Of a stretch of 64,000 nucleotides of DNA, positions 56,337-63,938 are shown in pieces. The notes below the pieces were generated by a model. The model was not told the DNA's origin. It ran no database searches and was given only the letters and a program-made list of their open reading frames with translations. The translations under genes were made by a program, and so were the position numbers. The DNA is from a virus: positions 22,349 through 86,348 of the IMG/VR virus record IMGVR_UViG_3300047554_000447. The stretch is one strand, 5' to 3'. The stretch's first letter is position 1. The number at the start of each line of letters is the position of its first letter.

Positions 56337-56786
56337 ATGACTAAGACACTTTTAGAGTACATTGAAGAAGTTGAACTAGCTGGAGACGAAAGCGATATTT
56401 CAGCAGGTGACGGCTTTGACATTGAAATCAGCGAAGATGCTGTTATTGAAACTACTGTTATCGACTCATGGGATGACAGCATTCTTATCAGTCTAGATTC
56501 TACAGCGATCGCTATGCTGTCAGAAGCTAACATCGAACTTATCACCGAAGCAGAATATCAGGGCAGAAAAGTACCGTTAGGTAAGCCTATGAAGGGTGAT
56601 GTTAAAAAATCTAAGGTTTATGTAAAAGGCCCTAAAGGTAATGTAGTCAAAGTTAACTTTGGCGACAAAAAGTTGAGCATTAAAAAGCATATTCCAGGAA
56701 GACGTAAAAATTTCCGGGCTCGTCATAATTGCGATAATCCAGGTCCACGCTGGAAAGCAAGATACTGGTCTTGTAGGGCATGGTGA
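56337..56786 (+). CDS. Putative head-associated protein with compact basic C-terminal domain
   Basis: A 149-residue protein. The N-terminus TKTLLEYIEEVELAGDE is an acidic amphipathic helix like T4 capsid-targeting peptides. The middle is acidic, while the last 85 residues are basic: GRKVPLGKPMKGDVKKSK, then KKHIPGRRKNFRARHNCDNP and WKARYWSCRAW, a compact Cys/Trp domain widespread in T4-like marine phages. Its leader is a switchable hairpin. A role inside the capsid or in DNA packing is inferred. Confidence 0.72.
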   Translation: MTKTLLEYIEEVELAGDESDISAGDGFDIEISEDAVIETTVIDSWDDSILISLDSTAIAMLSEANIELITEAEYQGRKVPLGKPMKGDVKKSKVYVKGPKGNVVKVNFGDKKLSIKKHIPGRRKNFRARHNCDNPGPRWKARYWSCRAW

Positions 56787-56787
56787 T

Positions 56788-57123
56788 ATGAAAGTATTTG
56801 AAATCTTTAGTCAAAATATAGAAGATAAAAAGATCGACTTTGATCTTGCGGATGACGTTATCTATTTCATGAACAACGATCCGGAATTCTATAGAAAAGA
56901 ATATTTTCCATTTCTAACTAAATTCCAGCATCATTGCGATGCTGGCCGCCAGGTAACTCCAAAAGCATTTTTCCCAGTAGTTAAACGAGCAGTCGAAAAT
57001 TACAAATTAAAGTTTCCAATGAATGAACTTGAAGAAGCATTAAACGATGGACAAATTACAGAAATCTGTGAAAAACTACAAACACAAGAGCTAGCTAATT
57101 ACCACAATCAAAAAGAGAAATGA
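56788..57123 (+). CDS. Small phage protein with targeting-type N-terminus
   Basis: A 111-residue helical protein starting MKVFEIFSQNIEDKKIDFD. FPFLTKFQHHCDAGRQVTPK and VVKRAVENYKLKF are the core. It lies one base after the preceding stop. The N-terminal pattern (M-x-x-x-E-I-F-x-x-x-I-E-D) is like those of the neighbouring genes; the body resembles a conserved helical domain of cyanophage proteins. Function unknown. Confidence 0.7.
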   Translation: MKVFEIFSQNIEDKKIDFDLADDVIYFMNNDPEFYRKEYFPFLTKFQHHCDAGRQVTPKAFFPVVKRAVENYKLKFPMNELEEALNDGQITEICEKLQTQELANYHNQKEK

Positions 57124-57124
57124 T

Positions 57125-58423
57125 ATGTTATTAAGAGAAATGTTTGAAGATAAAGGCCAAAGTGTTGGTTTAATATTTGGTCGTTTTAATCCTCCGCATC
57201 GTGGACACAGAGCCGCTTGGGAATTAGCTAGCGAAAATGAGCATTGGTTTGTTGGCACTAACGAAAGCACACAAGGTCCTAAAGACCCACTACCATTTAA
57301 AATAAAAGTAGAAGCTATGAAAACAATCTGGCCTGATGTAGACGGTCATATCGTAGCTGATACTAGTTGGTTAACTCTTGCCAGTAAGATTTACAAAAAG
57401 TTTGGCGATGTGACTCTAAATGTCTATACTGACGAAGATTGGGTTACAAAAACTATTCAACAGTATAACGGCAAAGAAGGTCCACACGGAGTTTATAAAT
57501 TTTCAAAAATTAATCAAGTTCCTACTCCTAGACTAAGTTCTGCTACTGCTCTAAGAGCGGCTGTACAGTCTGGAGATAGAGAAGCATTTTCAAGAGCCGC
57601 AGGCGTTCCTGCAGATACAGAAGTTGCTGGACAACCATTCTTTGATCTGGTTGCAGAATATCTGTTACCTTATGCCGAAAAAGAAAAAGCCAAAGCTGAA
57701 AAGAAAAAGAAAAAAGAACCGGTAGCAACAGAAGGCGTTATCAATATGATGGAGTTAGCTAAGAAAGCTAAATCTATGCTAAACAATGGTATGTCTGAAC
57801 AGCAAGTTCAATCGGAACTTGTTAAAAGTGGCGTTCCTTCTAGACTTGCCGCACAAGCTGTTCAAATGGCACAGATGCAAGAGACTGTAGCTTTAGAAGC
57901 ACCTATCGAAATGGATCCAGCTGATCCAATGGATCCAATGATCTACGGACACGAAAAAGCTAATCCAGGAAAACTAAAATATCGAATGATGCGAGCCGAA
58001 CGTCAATTGTCTGATCTTGCTGATCGCGCTAAGAATGCCAGTCCAGCAGAATGGCAACTTATCAGCAGACAGTTCAGCGAACTAGCGATGAACATTAATC
58101 AAATTAAACACGGCCTAGAAGAGTTAGCTAAAGTAAGACGCAAAGGCGGAGTTCGTAGTCGAGGTATAGATACAATGATTGATAGCGTAAGCGAACGAGT
58201 AAGAGATCCGGAAGATTGGGATGAAGGCAATACTGAGCCTCCCAATAATTTTGCTGTTTATATCAATGGTAAGAAGTGGAAAGTATTTCCAGGCAGAGGC
58301 CGTTATGCCGATGACGAAAGAGAAAGAAAACAGTATTATGATCTTAGAGCATGGGCTCAACGTAAATCCGAAGCCACTGGTAAAAAGTGGACTGTTTCTA
58401 TTACCGGTGAATCACCAACTTAA
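57125..58423 (+). CDS. NMN adenylyltransferase-like nucleotidyltransferase with C-terminal extension
   Basis: N-terminal 180 residues: SVGLIFGRFNPPHRGHRAAW gives the HxGH motif (His25, His28), and RLSSATALRAAV is the second nucleotide-binding motif (S-x-T-x-x-R type). This resembles NMN adenylyltransferases of the NadM/NadR kind used for NAD salvage in some T4-like phages. A Lys/Glu linker leads to about 230 further residues, ending in a small beta-domain (NFAVYINGKKWKVFPGRG) and WAQRKSEATGKKWTVS. The N-terminus MLLREMFEDKG is of the capsid-targeting type. Substrate not provable by eye. Confidence 0.78.
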   Translation: MLLREMFEDKGQSVGLIFGRFNPPHRGHRAAWELASENEHWFVGTNESTQGPKDPLPFKIKVEAMKTIWPDVDGHIVADTSWLTLASKIYKKFGDVTLNVYTDEDWVTKTIQQYNGKEGPHGVYKFSKINQVPTPRLSSATALRAAVQSGDREAFSRAAGVPADTEVAGQPFFDLVAEYLLPYAEKEKAKAEKKKKKEPVATEGVINMMELAKKAKSMLNNGMSEQQVQSELVKSGVPSRLAAQAVQMAQMQETVALEAPIEMDPADPMDPMIYGHEKANPGKLKYRMMRAERQLSDLADRAKNASPAEWQLISRQFSELAMNINQIKHGLEELAKVRRKGGVRSRGIDTMIDSVSERVRDPEDWDEGNTEPPNNFAVYINGKKWKVFPGRGRYADDERERKQYYDLRAWAQRKSEATGKKWTVSITGESPT

Positions 58424-58425
58424 TT

Positions 58426-58641
58426 ATGGAACTGAACGAATTAAAACGCCTAGCTGGCATAAACGAATTCAAAGGGTACATAAAGTACGACCCTGTTGAT
58501 CCTATGGGCGGTAGTAATGTTAGTCTTACCGGCAACGAGAAAGGCGAACTAATGAAAAAACATAATATTAAACCAGGTACCCCCGATTGGTTTAAGTTAT
58601 GGTTTAGCTTGCCTTTTATGACAGGGGAAAAACCTGTATGA
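58426..58641 (+). CDS. Small phage protein, function unknown
   Basis: A 71-residue protein: an N-terminal helix MELNELKRLAGINEFKG, then a Gly/Pro-rich middle (DPVDPMGGSNVS) and a hydrophobic end (WFKLWFSLPFM). Overlaps the next gene by 4 bases. The N-terminus follows the local pattern of short acidic/hydrophobic leaders. No function is recognised. Confidence 0.65.
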   Translation: MELNELKRLAGINEFKGYIKYDPVDPMGGSNVSLTGNEKGELMKKHNIKPGTPDWFKLWFSLPFMTGEKPV

Positions 58642-59072
58642 AAATTATAGAAATAATTTCAGAGAGCGTTGAACTCGATGAAAGAAAAAAGAAAAAACGT
58701 AAAAAAGTAAAGTCTGCGGCCTATGGTCCAGGACCTTACGGTATGTACGGAACTGCTGTAGGTTACAGCGGAGAAGGTGGTGATGGTGGCGGAGTTGGCG
58801 AGGGATTAGAAGAACATAAGAAAGGTGTTCGTGCAAGAATCTATAATAAAAAACCAAAGGCATATATCGAACCACCGAAAACTCCAAAAGTTGAAGAAAA
58901 CTTTGCGGATGGAAAAAATCCGCAGGATAAAGGTGACAGTAAGCGTCACGGAATACCAAAGGGTGCTAGTATATCACAGCTTAAAAAGATAAGAAGCAGT
59001 GACTCTGCCAGTCCACGCAAGAAACAGCTTGCACACTGGCAAATTAACATGAGACAAGGAAAACAAAAATGA
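58638..59072 (+). CDS. Small basic phage protein with KRHGIPKG domain
   Basis: A 144-residue basic protein. The N-terminus MKIIEIISESVELDE is targeting-like and is followed by a poly-Lys patch (KKKKRKKVKS) and a Gly/Tyr stretch. The C-terminal 55 residues (GDSKRHGIPKGASISQLKK then RKKQLAHWQINMRQGK) are a small basic domain found in many phage and giant-virus proteins, which may bind nucleic acid. Directly coupled to the endolysin (4-base overlap). Confidence 0.72.
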   Translation: MKIIEIISESVELDERKKKKRKKVKSAAYGPGPYGMYGTAVGYSGEGGDGGGVGEGLEEHKKGVRARIYNKKPKAYIEPPKTPKVEENFADGKNPQDKGDSKRHGIPKGASISQLKKIRSSDSASPRKKQLAHWQINMRQGKQK

Positions 59073-59701
59073 GCTTTGAATTTGATTTCACTTTAGACAA
59101 ATTAACAGAATGTGTTCATAAGAACAAAGAACCAGAACTATGGTACAACGCTCTTTGTGAGTATCTACCACAGTTTCAAATTACGACTCCTGCTAGAGTA
59201 GCAGGATTTATCGCACAATGCCAACACGAAAGTTTAGATTTTACATTCCTACAAGAAAATTTAAATTATAGTGCCAAAGGCTTAATGGGAATTTTTAAAA
59301 AGTATTTCCCTACAGAGGATATAGCTAATGCTTATGCTCGTAAACCTCAAATGATTGCTAATCGTGTTTATTCGAGTCGTATGGGCAACGGAGACGAAGC
59401 CAGCGGCGACGGTTGGAGATTTAGAGGCAGAGGCATTCTTCAAATCACAGGAAGATCAAATTATACACAGTGTTCGAGAGATCTATTTCAAGATGATACA
59501 CTTGTAAACGATCCTGATCTGCTAAGAACACCAGAATACGCTGTATTAACAGCCTGTTGGTTCTGGCACAAGAACGGATTAAATCAGATCTGTGACAAGG
59601 GCGATATTGTATTATTAAGTAAACGCATCAACGGCGGTACTATCGGTTTAGAAGATCGTATTGCACATTGGAACATTGCCCTGGACTTATTTGAGGCTTA
59701 A
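59069..59701 (+). CDS. Glycoside hydrolase 19-type endolysin
   Basis: Cleaves the beta-1,4 glycan of peptidoglycan at lysis. AGFIAQCQHESLDFTFLQEN with NYSAKGLM contains the first catalytic Glu region of GH19 enzymes, and RFRGRGILQITGRSNY is the family substrate-cleft block; the C-terminus has CWFWHKNGLNQICDKGD and KRINGG. 210 residues, a single catalytic domain with no signal peptide, so export needs a holin; the candidate is at 51459. Confidence 0.9.
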   Translation: MSFEFDFTLDKLTECVHKNKEPELWYNALCEYLPQFQITTPARVAGFIAQCQHESLDFTFLQENLNYSAKGLMGIFKKYFPTEDIANAYARKPQMIANRVYSSRMGNGDEASGDGWRFRGRGILQITGRSNYTQCSRDLFQDDTLVNDPDLLRTPEYAVLTACWFWHKNGLNQICDKGDIVLLSKRINGGTIGLEDRIAHWNIALDLFEA

Positions 59702-59702
59702 G

Positions 59703-59960
59703 ATGCTGATAAAAGAAATCGTTACAGAAACTGCAACTCCTGGATCTACAAGTGCAGGTAATATTGCGACTGTAGTCAGTCCTCATATTGCTATAGGTAA
59801 GGATAGAGGTAATAAAAGCTACACAGGCAGTCCAGGAAAATCAGGTACTAAAGCACCTCGAGTTCCCAAGGTTAAACAGGCTAAAAACGCAGACGGAACT
59901 GCTAAGAACGCACTAGATATGGATAAAAACATTTTCGGTGAAGGCGCTTTAAAACGATAA
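59703..59960 (+). CDS. Small Gly/Lys-rich phage protein
   Basis: An 85-residue protein from ATG 59703, one base after the endolysin stop; the frame is open upstream only inside that gene. It starts MLIKEIVTETATPGSTS (targeting-type) and continues with a low-complexity Gly/Ser/Lys/Pro stretch (GNKSYTGSPGKSGTKAPR). The end overlaps a late-type promoter. Probably a disordered internal virion protein; function unknown. Confidence 0.65.
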   Translation: MLIKEIVTETATPGSTSAGNIATVVSPHIAIGKDRGNKSYTGSPGKSGTKAPRVPKVKQAKNADGTAKNALDMDKNIFGEGALKR

Positions 59961-59963
59961 ATA
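59956..59963 (+). promoter_or_regulatory. Late-type promoter (GATAAATA)
   Basis: GATAAATA overlaps the preceding stop. The next ATG is at 59987 with TTGGAG as ribosome site, giving a leader of about 20 bases. Confidence 0.65.
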
Positions 59964-59986
59964 CAACGATATTGGAGAATTCCCAA

Positions 59987-61132
59987 ATGCACGACGACTT
60001 AATGAACAGACCAGAAAATCACGAAGCCGCAATGGCCCGTGCCGACCTTTACAAACTAGCAAACTACAGCATGAAGCTGTTTAAAATGATCCACGAAGGA
60101 CAAGAGCTAGAAGGTTGGGTACAAGCTAAAATTACTAAATCAGCAGATTACATCGCATCTGTTTATCATTTCATGGAATATGAAATGAAAGTTTCAGAGT
60201 ACGGTGAAAAATTAGAAAATGCAGATGTTTACTCAGAGTCTGTTCGTAGGGCGTTTGCACAAAAATTAACCGAAGCCAAACAAAAAATGGCTAAGATGAA
60301 AAAGAAGAACGAAAAAGATGTCACTGAAGAACTTAAAAATGTTGGAGATACTGCTAAGACACACAAAGGCGGTACTGTAACTAAGACATCAACTGGTGTC
60401 AAGCACGAAAGAGATCCTGACAGTTACGACGACGGTGGTGATGATAGCGATGAAAAATCAGGCAAAGGCAAGAAGAGCCATGCTAAATCTCAGTCAGCCG
60501 CTGAAAAGAAAGCCAAGGCTCCTGCACAGAAAAAATCTAAGTCAGGTACTTGGGGTATGGAAGGTGGCGAAAAGTTTGACAACAGAAAAGTAAAAGAAGC
60601 TACAATGGTTCCATCTCCGGCAGATGGCGCAACTGCTCCTCCACCAAAAGGCAAGGATGGCAAATATCCATTCGTAGTTTCTGGACCGCACAAAGGCAAG
60701 CGTTGGAGTCCACAAACTCCAGGCCCAACAAACCCTGCATTTAAAGAATCTAGTCATCAAGAAAAGACTACAATGAAGCACGTTAAGAATCCTACAGCAG
60801 GTGAAAAGAAAGCCGCTAAGGATATCAAGCCAGGTATTGCAGGTTATAAAGATCGTGTCGACATGTTAAAGAGTGCTGAAAAAGACGGTCGTTTAAAAGA
60901 AGGTTCTAAACCAGACTTCTTAGACATGGACAAAGACGGCAACAAGAAAGAGCCAATGAAGAAAGCTCTTAAAGATAAAAAAGTTAAAGAATCATCTAAG
61001 CTAGATGTAGATAAAAACGATCCCAACTTAGATGTAAAGAAGACAGGTTCAGATACTCAAGTAACTTCTAAAACAGGTAGAGTTAGAACTTCAGTAGAAA
61101 AAGATAAAATGAGCGTAACTTCTGCGAAATAA
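59987..61132 (+). CDS. Lys-rich virion/scaffold-like protein
   Basis: A 381-residue protein. The TTG at 59972 extends the frame, but it overlaps the ribosome site; ATG 59987 gives MHDDLMNRPENHEAAMARAD. Residues 1-100 are a helical domain (LYKLANYSMKLFKMIHEGQE, ADYIASVYHFMEYEMK) found in T4-like marine phages, followed by a long Lys/Glu/Asp/Ser-rich low-complexity region and a KGKRWSPQTPGPTNPAF segment. The last part is Asp/Lys-rich (KSDFLDMDKDG-like repeats). Such composition suits a scaffold or internal head protein. Confidence 0.72.
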   Translation: MHDDLMNRPENHEAAMARADLYKLANYSMKLFKMIHEGQELEGWVQAKITKSADYIASVYHFMEYEMKVSEYGEKLENADVYSESVRRAFAQKLTEAKQKMAKMKKKNEKDVTEELKNVGDTAKTHKGGTVTKTSTGVKHERDPDSYDDGGDDSDEKSGKGKKSHAKSQSAAEKKAKAPAQKKSKSGTWGMEGGEKFDNRKVKEATMVPSPADGATAPPPKGKDGKYPFVVSGPHKGKRWSPQTPGPTNPAFKESSHQEKTTMKHVKNPTAGEKKAAKDIKPGIAGYKDRVDMLKSAEKDGRLKEGSKPDFLDMDKDGNKKEPMKKALKDKKVKESSKLDVDKNDPNLDVKKTGSDTQVTSKTGRVRTSVEKDKMSVTSAK

Positions 61133-61134
61133 TT

Positions 61135-61938
61135 ATGGACATGAAAAAAATTCTACAGGCTTTTGATGGTGCGTCTTCATCTAAGACGCCCGAAGGCTCT
61201 AATGACATGAAAAAATTCATGCAGATTGTAGAGGGCACGGGCCCTCTTAATCGTTTAACTGCCGCAGAATCAATGGCTGTACAACATTTTCAGCAAGAAA
61301 AAACAATTACACCTCCTGTATTGAATGTTGCTAAAGATGCTAAACCCAGCATGGTTGGCAAATATTTCAAAGCTATTGAACAAGAACTAGCAGAAGCTGA
61401 GCAACGATTTAATGATCAAAAATCCGTTCGTGCTAAAAAATTAGCAGAACGTGTTATTGAACGTGTAGTACCCGGACAAGAAACACCTCCAGGTATTAAT
61501 AGATTAACCGGTAAACCAATTGAGCCACAAGCACCAGCACAACCAGCACCTGCACCTGCTGCCGGTCCTAGAGGTAGCAATTTAAAATATAGTGTGCTTA
61601 AACAATTACAAGCTGGAACTTACAAAGGATTCGCTCCTAGATTAAGTCCAGAGGAATTAGATGCGGCTATCCAATGGAAAGAAGCCAACGGAGAAACTAA
61701 CGAAAGTATTAACGAAGCTGATGCTATTGATACAGTAAAGTTAGATGTTCCTTTATTATTAAGAGTAATGGAATATGCTAAAGAAGATGCTCAGGACGAT
61801 ATGGCTCTCCATGATGTTGCACAAAAATTAATTGAATTGAGTAAAGAGAACGATGTATTAACTATGGATCACTATGATGCTATAGTCGGCGATCAAGAAT
61901 TATTACCAGCACCAGATGCTGACAAGGACACACCTTAG
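61135..61938 (+). CDS. Internal-head-like protein with helical C-terminal domain
   Basis: A 267-residue protein: N-terminus MDMKKILQAFDGASSS repeated as NDMKKFMQIVEGTG (residues 23-36), then a coiled-coil region (EQELAEAEQRFNDQKSVRA), an Ala/Pro-rich linker and a C-terminal helical domain (DVPLLLRVMEYAKEDAQDD then HDVAQKLIELSKEN) that I recognise as common in cyanophage proteins. Two targeting-type segments in tandem are notable. Function unknown; virion location inferred. Confidence 0.7.
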   Translation: MDMKKILQAFDGASSSKTPEGSNDMKKFMQIVEGTGPLNRLTAAESMAVQHFQQEKTITPPVLNVAKDAKPSMVGKYFKAIEQELAEAEQRFNDQKSVRAKKLAERVIERVVPGQETPPGINRLTGKPIEPQAPAQPAPAPAAGPRGSNLKYSVLKQLQAGTYKGFAPRLSPEELDAAIQWKEANGETNESINEADAIDTVKLDVPLLLRVMEYAKEDAQDDMALHDVAQKLIELSKENDVLTMDHYDAIVGDQELLPAPDADKDTP

Positions 61939-62042
61939 GACCGGTATTAAGTTACCGAAAGTGTGCGCCGGCTGCTGGCGCGAAGAAAACGATTCGCTAC
62001 CGTAGACTTCGAAAGTGAGCACGAATTTCGGGGAAGAAAAAC
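61939..62042 (+). other. Structured intergenic segment of 104 bases
   Basis: One of the few non-coding gaps in this gene run. It contains hairpins CGGTA/TACCG (61942-61946 with 61953-61957) and GCGCC/GGCGC (61965-61969 with 61977-61981), and two near-identical 11-mers, CGAAAGTGTGC (61956) and CGAAAGTGAGC (62010). GGGGAAG precedes the next ATG. No tRNA cloverleaf, ribozyme core or promoter is recognised. Confidence 0.5.
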
Positions 62043-62942
62043 ATGGACTTAAAATCATTAATGCAAAAGTTAGAAACACTAGATAAAAAACAAGTTCTAA
62101 CTGAATCAGTACAAGAGCAAACTGAGATGATCAACGAAACTGTTTCAACAGAAACAAAAAAAGTTACCTCAGTTGAAGAAACATTTAGTAGTGCTATTGC
62201 ACAGGCTTTATTAAAAGAATTTGGTTACAGTAACGACGAAGTTACAGAAGCAGATGATTTTAAGTTTAGTCCAGAACAAGAAAAATGGTTAGGTGGTGCT
62301 AATCGCCAAGACCCTTACATTATTGCAAGAATGCCCGGTCCTAAGCCTCCATTAACATATTTTAAAGATCCCGAAGATCAAGCTATTGCCAAACAAATGA
62401 ATATTGGCCAAGGTAACATGAACGCTATCAAAGGCGCTCTAGGAATGCAAAAAGGTGATGATCAAGTATATTCTGATCCAACTACTGCTAAACCAGCTAG
62501 CGGTCAAGCCGCACAGCCAGCTACCCCACAAGCAACTGATCAACGTGTAAATCCAGATAGTCAGCAAGGTCAAATGTTAGCAAAGCAGACTATGGGCATG
62601 GATGAGCCACAATCGGGTGTAGCAGGTGTCCAAGGTGGTAGCGAACAAGATCGTCAACTTGCCGCACAGACAGCAGGTATGGATGCTCCAGAAAAAGGAC
62701 AAGCCGCACAGCCAGCAACACCAGCAGATCAAGGAACTATTGATCCAGCTAAGGTAGCAAGATTTAAAGCATTACTAGCTAAAGCTAGCGGAGGACAGGC
62801 CGCACAACCGGCAGCTGGTGGTAAAGGTGTTACACCCCCTACTAAACCGGCAGCTCCTGGAATGGGAGGCGGTACAGGCATAACTCCTAATGCAAACACT
62901 ACAGTTACTGGTGCTCCAATAAATCCGCAAGCTAGAAAATAA
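62043..62942 (+). CDS. Ala/Gln/Pro-repeat protein, probably virion-internal
   Basis: A 299-residue protein: N-terminus MDLKSLMQKLETLDKKQVLT followed by acidic helices (EQTEMINETVSTETKK), a segment with SPEQEKWLGGANRQDPY and MPGPKPPLTYF, and then a low-complexity C-terminal half with three copies of GQAAQPA among Gly/Pro/Ala linkers. The same heptad recurs in the next gene. It is likely a flexible virion component; no enzyme motif. Confidence 0.68.
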   Translation: MDLKSLMQKLETLDKKQVLTESVQEQTEMINETVSTETKKVTSVEETFSSAIAQALLKEFGYSNDEVTEADDFKFSPEQEKWLGGANRQDPYIIARMPGPKPPLTYFKDPEDQAIAKQMNIGQGNMNAIKGALGMQKGDDQVYSDPTTAKPASGQAAQPATPQATDQRVNPDSQQGQMLAKQTMGMDEPQSGVAGVQGGSEQDRQLAAQTAGMDAPEKGQAAQPATPADQGTIDPAKVARFKALLAKASGGQAAQPAAGGKGVTPPTKPAAPGMGGGTGITPNANTTVTGAPINPQARK

Positions 62943-62951
62943 GGAAAAATC

Positions 62952-63938
62952 ATGAAAGATATTATTTTAGAATCATTAAACAAAATTCGAGAAATTGAAT
63001 CTCGTCAGATTATTTCCGAAGCACTAACCCCCGAAGAACAAAAAGAATTAGATGCTCTAGCAAAAGAACTAGAACCACACATGGGTCGTTCTCCTGAAGT
63101 TGATGCGCTATTGTTACAACATCAAAAAGTAGCCAGTGGCGGCCAGGCTGCACAACCAGCTAAAGCAGGAACTCCTGCAATGGATCCCGAAAAGCTAAAA
63201 GCATATCAAACAAAATTAGGTGTCACAGCCGATGGTAAAATGGGTCCTGAAACTAAGGCCGCTATTCAAAAGTTCCAAAAAGACAACGGACTAGCAGTCG
63301 ACGGAATCATCGGACCACAAACTAGCGCGGCTTTAGATAAGCAACCGGCAGCTGGTCAAGCCGCACAGCCAGCCGCTGGTGCAAAAGGTCCAGATGCAAT
63401 TCCAGCAACTGCTGACAAGAAAAAGCCTTATTGGGTAGGCGGTACACGTTACGAGTGGAAAACAACAGGCGGGGGTCGTGGACAACCTGCTACTGGTAGC
63501 TGGCAAGTTACTGCAACGCCAGATGATAAGCTTCAGTGGAACGCTACTAGGGCGAGATCGTCTAGTGGATTTACAGGAGCAGATGACGAGTTTCAAGGTA
63601 CTCAAACAGCAAAAGCACCTGCCGCTCAACCAGCAGGTCAAACCGCTCAACCAGCAGGTCAAGCCGCACAACCAGCTCAGAGCGCACCAGCAGGAACTAA
63701 GACAACTTCCAGCACTCAAGTATCTGGTACATTGAAAATGGGTAAACCGGAAGGGCCAATCCAGTATAACGGAAAAACTGTAAATCCTGGAGATCCAGAT
63801 TATGCGGCCGCAAGTCAAGCATTAATTCAATCTCAACAGAAAGCACAGCAGTCTAGGAGCGATTGGAAATCTAAATCTACTGCATCAACGGCGCCAGTAC
63901 AACAAGGCGCTACAAACGCAGATAGAAGAGATATGTAA
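62952..63938 (+). CDS. Peptidoglycan-binding-domain protein with AQPA repeats
   Basis: A 328-residue protein: N-terminus MKDIILESLNKIREIESRQI, then QIISEALTPEEQ. Residues about 83-125 are a PG_binding_1 domain (YQTKLGVTADGKMGPETKAA, KFQKDNGLAVDGIIGPQT). Flanking regions contain several GQAAQPA or AGQTAQPA repeats, and a KKKPYWVGGTRYEWK beta-segment lies between. It would bind peptidoglycan, either in lysis or at DNA entry. A capsid-targeting-like N-terminus suggests it may be packaged in the virion. Confidence 0.75.
   Translation: MKDIILESLNKIREIESRQIISEALTPEEQKELDALAKELEPHMGRSPEVDALLLQHQKVASGGQAAQPAKAGTPAMDPEKLKAYQTKLGVTADGKMGPETKAAIQKFQKDNGLAVDGIIGPQTSAALDKQPAAGQAAQPAAGAKGPDAIPATADKKKPYWVGGTRYEWKTTGGGRGQPATGSWQVTATPDDKLQWNATRARSSSGFTGADDEFQGTQTAKAPAAQPAGQTAQPAGQAAQPAQSAPAGTKTTSSTQVSGTLKMGKPEGPIQYNGKTVNPGDPDYAAASQALIQSQQKAQQSRSDWKSKSTASTAPVQQGATNADRRDM

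Follow-up and report, generated by a model that had tools for sequence, protein, structure and literature searches.

Capsid-targeting-like leaders on unrelated proteins: a gene block that probably encodes internal head proteins of a large T4-type phage

Introduction

At the extreme end of the 86,348-base virus record IMGVR_UViG_3300047554_000447, a block of 11 consecutive open reading frames (ORFs) on the + strand (positions 56337-63938) encodes proteins with unrelated bodies, most of which open with a similar short leader, and the question that this locus raises is what the leader does. The window, by which we mean the whole stretch of DNA analysed, is the final 64 kb of that record (G000:C1:22349-86348); no near-nucleotide match to it was found among 50,697 phage records. 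A reading of the letters (the original prediction) had proposed that at least eight of the genes carry T4-like capsid-targeting N-termini, and all eight of these N-termini are indeed present where they were placed, on consecutive + strand ORFs; the other three of the 11 genes are 59069, 59972 and 58426 (genes are named by their first position; Table 1).

The internal proteins (IPs) of phage T4 bear propeptides of 10-19 residues; within these, residues 4 and 7 matter most for targeting and residues 8 and 10 for processing, and the T4 capsid protein gp23 sheds 65 residues (PMC9026906). Cyanophage virions hold enzymes, including NMNAT-like proteins and kinases, and whether these are cargo or contamination was left undecided by the authors (PMC10665884, PMC9602691).

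Here we propose, with a probability of roughly three in four, that the block as a whole encodes internal head proteins of a large T4-type phage, targeted to the capsid and processed by a protease. Most of its proteins begin with a putative leader of 8-25 residues (M, a hydrophobic residue, two residues, two hydrophobics, E), which would act like a T4 capsid-targeting sequence (CTS) by binding the prohead core during assembly. Cleavage behind this E by an S77 (gp21-type) prohead protease would then leave the mature protein with the DNA in the head, to be ejected upon infection. The same tag would be carried by unrelated bodies: an NMNAT-fold nucleotidylyltransferase, a peptidoglycan-binding protein and small proteins that look basic on reading of their sequences.

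Results

Relatives and lineage

A scan with the NMNAT-like protein (57125) yielded 80 loci; in the relatives, the block is flanked by a ClpA-like gene on one side and a gp43-type DNA polymerase on the other. An S77 prohead protease is encoded in four of 16 related records, those four being 111-280 kb long. Beside it stand genes for a scaffold-like protein and for an acidic core-like one, followed in the two longest records by the gene for the major capsid protein, which in one of them (G001) matches Gp23. The S77 protease and Gp23 of the relatives mark this as a T4-type lineage, and it is a large one. The unrelated bodies tagged in the relatives also include a DUF6267 protein and a HAD-like phosphatase.

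A leader common to unrelated families

Body families were clustered after removal of the first residues, and a leader profile was scored leaving one family out at a time, the control families being N-termini from the same genomes. Unrelated families share one leader pattern (MKLRQLFE, MRLRELFTE, MKIRDILE, MRAKEFIVE, MRIKELLE, MRIIDIITE). Within the window, the 11 block genes outscore the 47 other + strand genes with an area under the curve (AUC) of 0.83 (p=4e-4), and with an AUC of 0.77 (p=0.0027) when the families containing a window gene are excluded from training. The shared leader claimed for eight genes is borne out by this comparison for most of them, gene 56788 being weak and two of the leaders being of a variant type. 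Among the relatives, families with at least two members scored against 478 control families give an AUC of 0.72 (p=6e-5) and all families an AUC of 0.63 (p=6e-4), compared with a mean of 0.53 and a maximum of 0.65 over 30 random pseudo-clusters.

Strong leaders also occur outside the block, at G008:C1:189187-191695 and G001:C1:262210-263253 (MRINEILTES, MRIENLLENN, MRAKEFITER, MLLRELLERV), and the genes there are candidates for further internal proteins.

Transfer to T4

A profile trained on this lineage alone, without T4, was applied to 81 T4 genes, with sequences taken from the T4 record. The six T4 substrates with short propeptides rank high against the 75 other genes (gp22 5, IPIII 6, IPII 7, Alt 11, IPI 16 and gp24 22; AUC 0.90, p=6e-4), so that one profile recognises the leaders of both systems. 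To the eye, the block leaders are nearest in kind to that of T4 gp24 (MAKINELLRES); mostly of the form M[KR]hx[ED]hh(x)E, they lie further from MKTYQEFIAEA.

A copy of the capsid cleavage junction

In 55 distinct N-termini, the capsid protein of the relatives reads TRKYLSE/SATAGATSAGNVATLNRV or near variants, its E41 aligning with E65 of T4 gp23 in FLTE/A. Gene 59703 carries, after its leader, a copy of this cleavage junction and of the capsid N-arm, ETATPGSTSAGNIAT (59727-59771). It reads MLIKEIVTE/TATPGSTSAGNIATVV, and its homologues read MKIRDILE/SATAGATSS and MKISELLE/TATAGATSAGNIAT. When 59703 was compared with the called proteins of the two long records, the sole non-orthologous matches below E=0.1 were the capsid proteins, aligned at the junction (E=7e-5; for a relative 6e-7). 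At three loci (L005, L012, L039) the homologous segment lies within longer ORFs that retain the E/[ST] junction (E/[ST]ATAG.TSA), as if it were excised from a larger protein. On these alignments, the simplest reading of 59703 is a protein that would be cut at a capsid-type site and bear the capsid's mature arm, which perhaps docks in the shell. The ATG at 59703 lies inside a longer ORF opening at 59661, and the homologues favour 59703 as the start. Candidate leader-junction peptides for the S77 protease are KEIVTETATPGSTSAGN and KYLSESATAGATSAGN.

The NMNAT-like protein

The original prediction had placed an NMNAT-like enzyme and a peptidoglycan-binding protein in the block, and both identifications hold at the level of fold and domain, NMN or NaMN being a possible substrate of the former. 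The motifs GRFNPPHRGH (57179-57208) and SSATALR (57536-57556) are conserved in 57125, and its PF01467 match lies barely above the cut-off; the peptidoglycan-binding domain of gene 62952 matches PF01471 at E=1e-13 (51.6 bits against a curated cut-off of 23). Searching the PDB by sequence with the N-domain of 57125 gave no match, and a predicted model was therefore used (predicted local distance difference test, pLDDT, 91). This model matches NMNAT, NadD and PPAT structures, the best being NadM, a bifunctional NMNAT (2qjo, template modelling score 0.57), while the NCBIfam equivalog models score far below their cut-offs. With its (H/T)xGH and SSxxxR motifs and its modelled Rossmann-like fold, 57125 is predicted to be an NMNAT-fold nucleotidylyltransferase.

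Alignment of leaders across related phages, which had been proposed as a check, turned out in favour of the reading. In 18 sequences of the NMNAT family, residues 1, 3, 7 and 8 of the leader MxLRxLFE are invariant, E8 among them, and residues 9-13 are variable, with gaps; in the model the fold begins at residue 13 and the leader is disordered. The leader is thus a separately conserved unit. In phages 121Q and Muenster, the NMNAT homologues have their first strand at the start and no leader.

Tagged homologues in published virion proteomes

NMNAT-like proteins (cytidylyltransferase, T4-GC190) have been reported in the virions of cyanophages S-SM1 (PMC3037559), S-CREM2 (PMC10665884), S-SCSM1 (PMC9602691) and S-SZBM1 (PMC9146016). 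They share the NMNAT-fold domain with 57125, at only about 30% identity over the N-domain, the C-terminal part of 57125 being different. A CTS-like leader precedes the domain in each of the three sequences examined (S-CREM2 MKNFSSFLTEADE, S-SZBM1 MRFRQFIIEAVAA, S-SCSM1 MKSFLQFLKEAAE), and these proteins, detected in virions by mass spectrometry, begin MKNFSSFLTEA, MKSFLQFLKEA and MRFRQFIIEA; the proteome papers leave the leader undescribed.

Further tagged proteins of S-CREM2 are a SAM hydrolase (MKDFDSFLEEFD), an APH-like kinase (VKRFDAFLTEEE) and hypothetical proteins starting MKDLHSFLTEQ and MQTFSMFFSED. Among its non-structural proteins, the tag occurs in 5 of 28 detected against 2 of 165 undetected (p=8e-4); put the other way, 5/7 tagged proteins were detected against 23/186 untagged ones. 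For S-SCSM1, most of the genes in the block between gp41 and gp61 are marked as virion proteins. Melnitz, C48C1 and HTVC008M have related blocks, with the leaders MKKFSEIIEARGDTAVFTFGRFNPP, MLSFKQFVSEV, MKTLKELLRKKVGRKQPVVFAFGRLNPP and others.

Two other virion proteins have CTS-like motifs at different places. The Cas9-like protein gp12 of S-CREM2 (L087:7704-10313), which was detected in virions, has LRFASFMAEAAV shortly after its annotated start, and this nuclease may be packed too; gp93 of S-SCSM1 (L136:31627-31836), a small virion protein, ends in KKRTFKEFLEYIE, the motif lying at the C-terminus.

The genes of the block

Table 1. Genes of the block, with their N-terminal features and leader-profile scores.
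Position	Strand	Product	Features	Leader score
56337..56786	+	149-aa protein	Leader MTKTLLEYIEE (56337-56369)	4.6
56788..57123	+	111-aa protein of unknown function	Weak leader MKVFEIFSQNIED	1.7
57125..58423	+	432-aa protein, predicted NMNAT-fold nucleotidylyltransferase	Leader MLLREMFE (57125-57148); Pfam CTP_transf_like, phrog_3041	
58426..58641	+	71-aa protein MELNELKRLAGINEFKG	N-terminus MELNELKRLAGI; RLAG motif; no CTS-like leader	2.8
58638..59072	+	144-aa Lys-rich protein	Leader MKIIEIISE (58638-58664)	5.5
59069..59701	+	GH19 endolysin	phrog_181 E=1.2e-76, Pfam Glyco_hydro_19; no leader	-0.7
59703..59960	+	85-aa protein	Leader MLIKEIVTE (59703-59729)	4.7
59972..61132	+	386-aa protein	Start TTG 59972 or ATG 59987; no leader	
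61135..61938	+	267-aa protein	Variant leader MDMKKILQAFDG, then second helix DMKKFMQIVE (61135-61233)	4.9
62043..62942	+	299-aa Gln/Ala/Pro-rich protein	Leader MDLKSLMQKLETLDKKQVLTE (62043-62105), V-L-T-E/S site	9.8
62952..63938	+	328-aa protein with PG_binding_1 domain (63192-63335)	Leader ends IISE/A (62952-63020)	

Family scans put names on few of the bodies (57125, 59069, 62952 and 56337). Gene 56337 starts MTKTLLEYIEEVEL, and its C-terminal module is phrog_7595 (unknown function), common to pelagi- and roseophages; its homologues begin MNKSILEYIEEAE, MNIRELLNAL and MRDLLSKLDAIVSE. Homologues of 56788 start MKIFELYNPN, MRIKELLESR and MRLFELFGPE, and those of 58638 join related bodies to differing leaders of the same kind. 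Both the leader and the second helix of 61135 are retained in its homologues, and the leaders of 62952 homologues end VLSE/A, TISE/A, SIKE/A and VLNE/A. The leaderless endolysin 59069 is an internal negative control within the block.

A scaffold-like gene of G001 (L107:11632-12720) ends IRKLAGLKV or IRRLAGLKV, resembling the N-terminus of 58426 (58426-58641), and ELQRIKxLSGL, the C-terminus of one block family, is also like the end of the scaffold-like protein; judging from these likenesses, the RLAG-type ends are possibly a second core-binding motif.

Elsewhere in the record, the translations of the first 22 kb read as metabolic, methyltransferase and sulfotransferase-like genes. In its left part (L002:5143-7644), two neighbouring genes resemble, from their translations, parts of a tripartite tricarboxylate transporter, namely the periplasmic binding protein and the large membrane subunit, an unusual cargo for a phage.

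Discussion

A T4-type capsid-targeting propeptide on unrelated bodies, removed by a prohead protease as originally predicted, is the best-supported reading of the leaders because the profile transfers to T4, tagged homologues occur in virions, 59703 mimics the capsid junction, and the relatives encode an S77 protease and Gp23. The reading is likelier for the NMNAT-like protein and 59703 and less likely for 56788 and 61135. A kit of proteins probably enters the host together with the phage DNA; for the products of the window itself, and above all for the wall-binding protein, packaging, cleavage and ejection are what we infer.

Several observations weigh against it. Cleavage sites of the L/I-x-E type, said in the original prediction to be frequent, are enriched, though modestly: L/I-x-E[A/S] occurs within the first 30 residues in 0.17-0.20 of families against 0.05-0.07 of controls (p about 0.013). 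A strict regular expression run over the two long records finds about twice the expected number of matches (p 0.015-0.03). The score of the 56788 leader falls below the control 95th percentile of 3.4, and the leaders MDMKKIL and MDLKSLM have no E directly after the helix. The NMNAT homologues of S-PM2 and Syn1 have no clear leader at the annotated start. The T4 ranking covered 81 of about 280 genes, several of which are not known as substrates and rank equally high. The association in S-CREM2 is strong but not blind, because the motif was set after the N-termini had been seen and looser versions, namely loose regular expressions and a position-specific scoring matrix from 11 T4-core sequences, give weak or non-significant results (p 0.02-0.44). 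The 86-kb fragment does not include the protease and capsid genes, and neither kind was recognisable on reading the translations of the record's first 24 kb.

The alternative that survives best, although we consider it unlikely, is that the leaders bind the assembly core and that the proteins are scaffold or core parts (like T4 gp22, gp67 and gp68) which are degraded or expelled, so that little or nothing is delivered. The scaffold-like protein of the relatives starts MLDIVKQLFENN, near the NMNAT leader MRLRQLFENT, a likeness that is suggestive at an E of only 0.01-0.06, and T4 gp22 also scores on the leader profile; against this, mature virions contain tagged homologues, and the active-site motifs of the NMNAT-like enzyme are conserved. 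Quite unlikely, in our view, is that the leaders are amphipathic helices with some other role, such as attachment to a membrane or tail or coiled-coil pairing, without protease processing: h..hh is a generic amphipathic helix pattern and in some leaders (MDMKKILQAFDG) no E stands next to it, but the glutamate of the NMNAT leader is invariant, 59703 copies a cleavage junction, and the profile transfers to T4 substrates.

It is very unlikely that the block holds ordinary genes, auxiliary or for lysis, that are expressed in the cell and whose homologues in virion preparations are carry-over contaminants. Contamination was raised by the S-CREM2 and S-SCSM1 authors themselves (PMC10665884, PMC9602691), and the block does contain a GH19 endolysin; in S-CREM2, however, the tag marks detected proteins, and an N-terminal tag is not what abundance alone predicts. 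Reading the block as a lysis gene set (GH19 plus peptidoglycan binding) was rejected, as only GH19 fits and it has no leader. Chance likeness of the N-termini is most improbable, for even though strict regular expressions find just about twice the expected matches genome-wide, the controls are N-termini from the same genomes and composition fails to explain column-wise conservation, transfer to T4 and junction mimicry.

As a set of capsid-targeted proteins, the block resembles T4 IPI-III and Alt, which are processed by gp21, in having a short N-terminal h..hh.E leader on unrelated bodies, in a lineage with an S77 protease and Gp23. It differs from T4 in forming a single conserved gene block, in its other cargo and in the capsid N-arm copy on one protein, and it is known here from sequence alone. 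The giant phages SPN3US and phiKZ likewise have many inner head proteins that are ejected, and several of those of SPN3US lose propeptides after E to the prohead protease, but these propeptides are mostly far longer (several exceed 100 residues).

Contrary to what had been suggested, the set is not wholly undescribed: NMNAT-like proteins have been reported from cyanophage virions, in papers that do not mention the tag. Barring one T4 review, our literature search found no title on the tag in these lineages or in cyanophages, subscription papers being outside the search; on that basis the tag that would explain such proteins, its spread over the block and the capsid-junction mimic appear to be new. 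A T4-type tag on the cyanophage enzymes and on the gene block of a second lineage offers a mechanism for the presence of enzymes in virions and makes the question of cargo or contamination testable.

We regard it as evenly balanced whether, in a widespread large T4-type lineage and in marine T4-like phages, an interchangeable tag with a protease site serves as a general loading device, by which diverse enzymes and wall-binding proteins would be injected before phage gene expression, with one small protein copying the capsid junction and N-arm, and the injected set would be predictable from sequence. If this is true, candidates for the injected proteins of uncultured phages could be listed from their sequences. 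Restoration of NAD by a phage through the enzyme Namat is known (PMC12774641), and an NMNAT-fold enzyme carried in the head could provide NAD ahead of phage gene expression or offset defences that deplete it.

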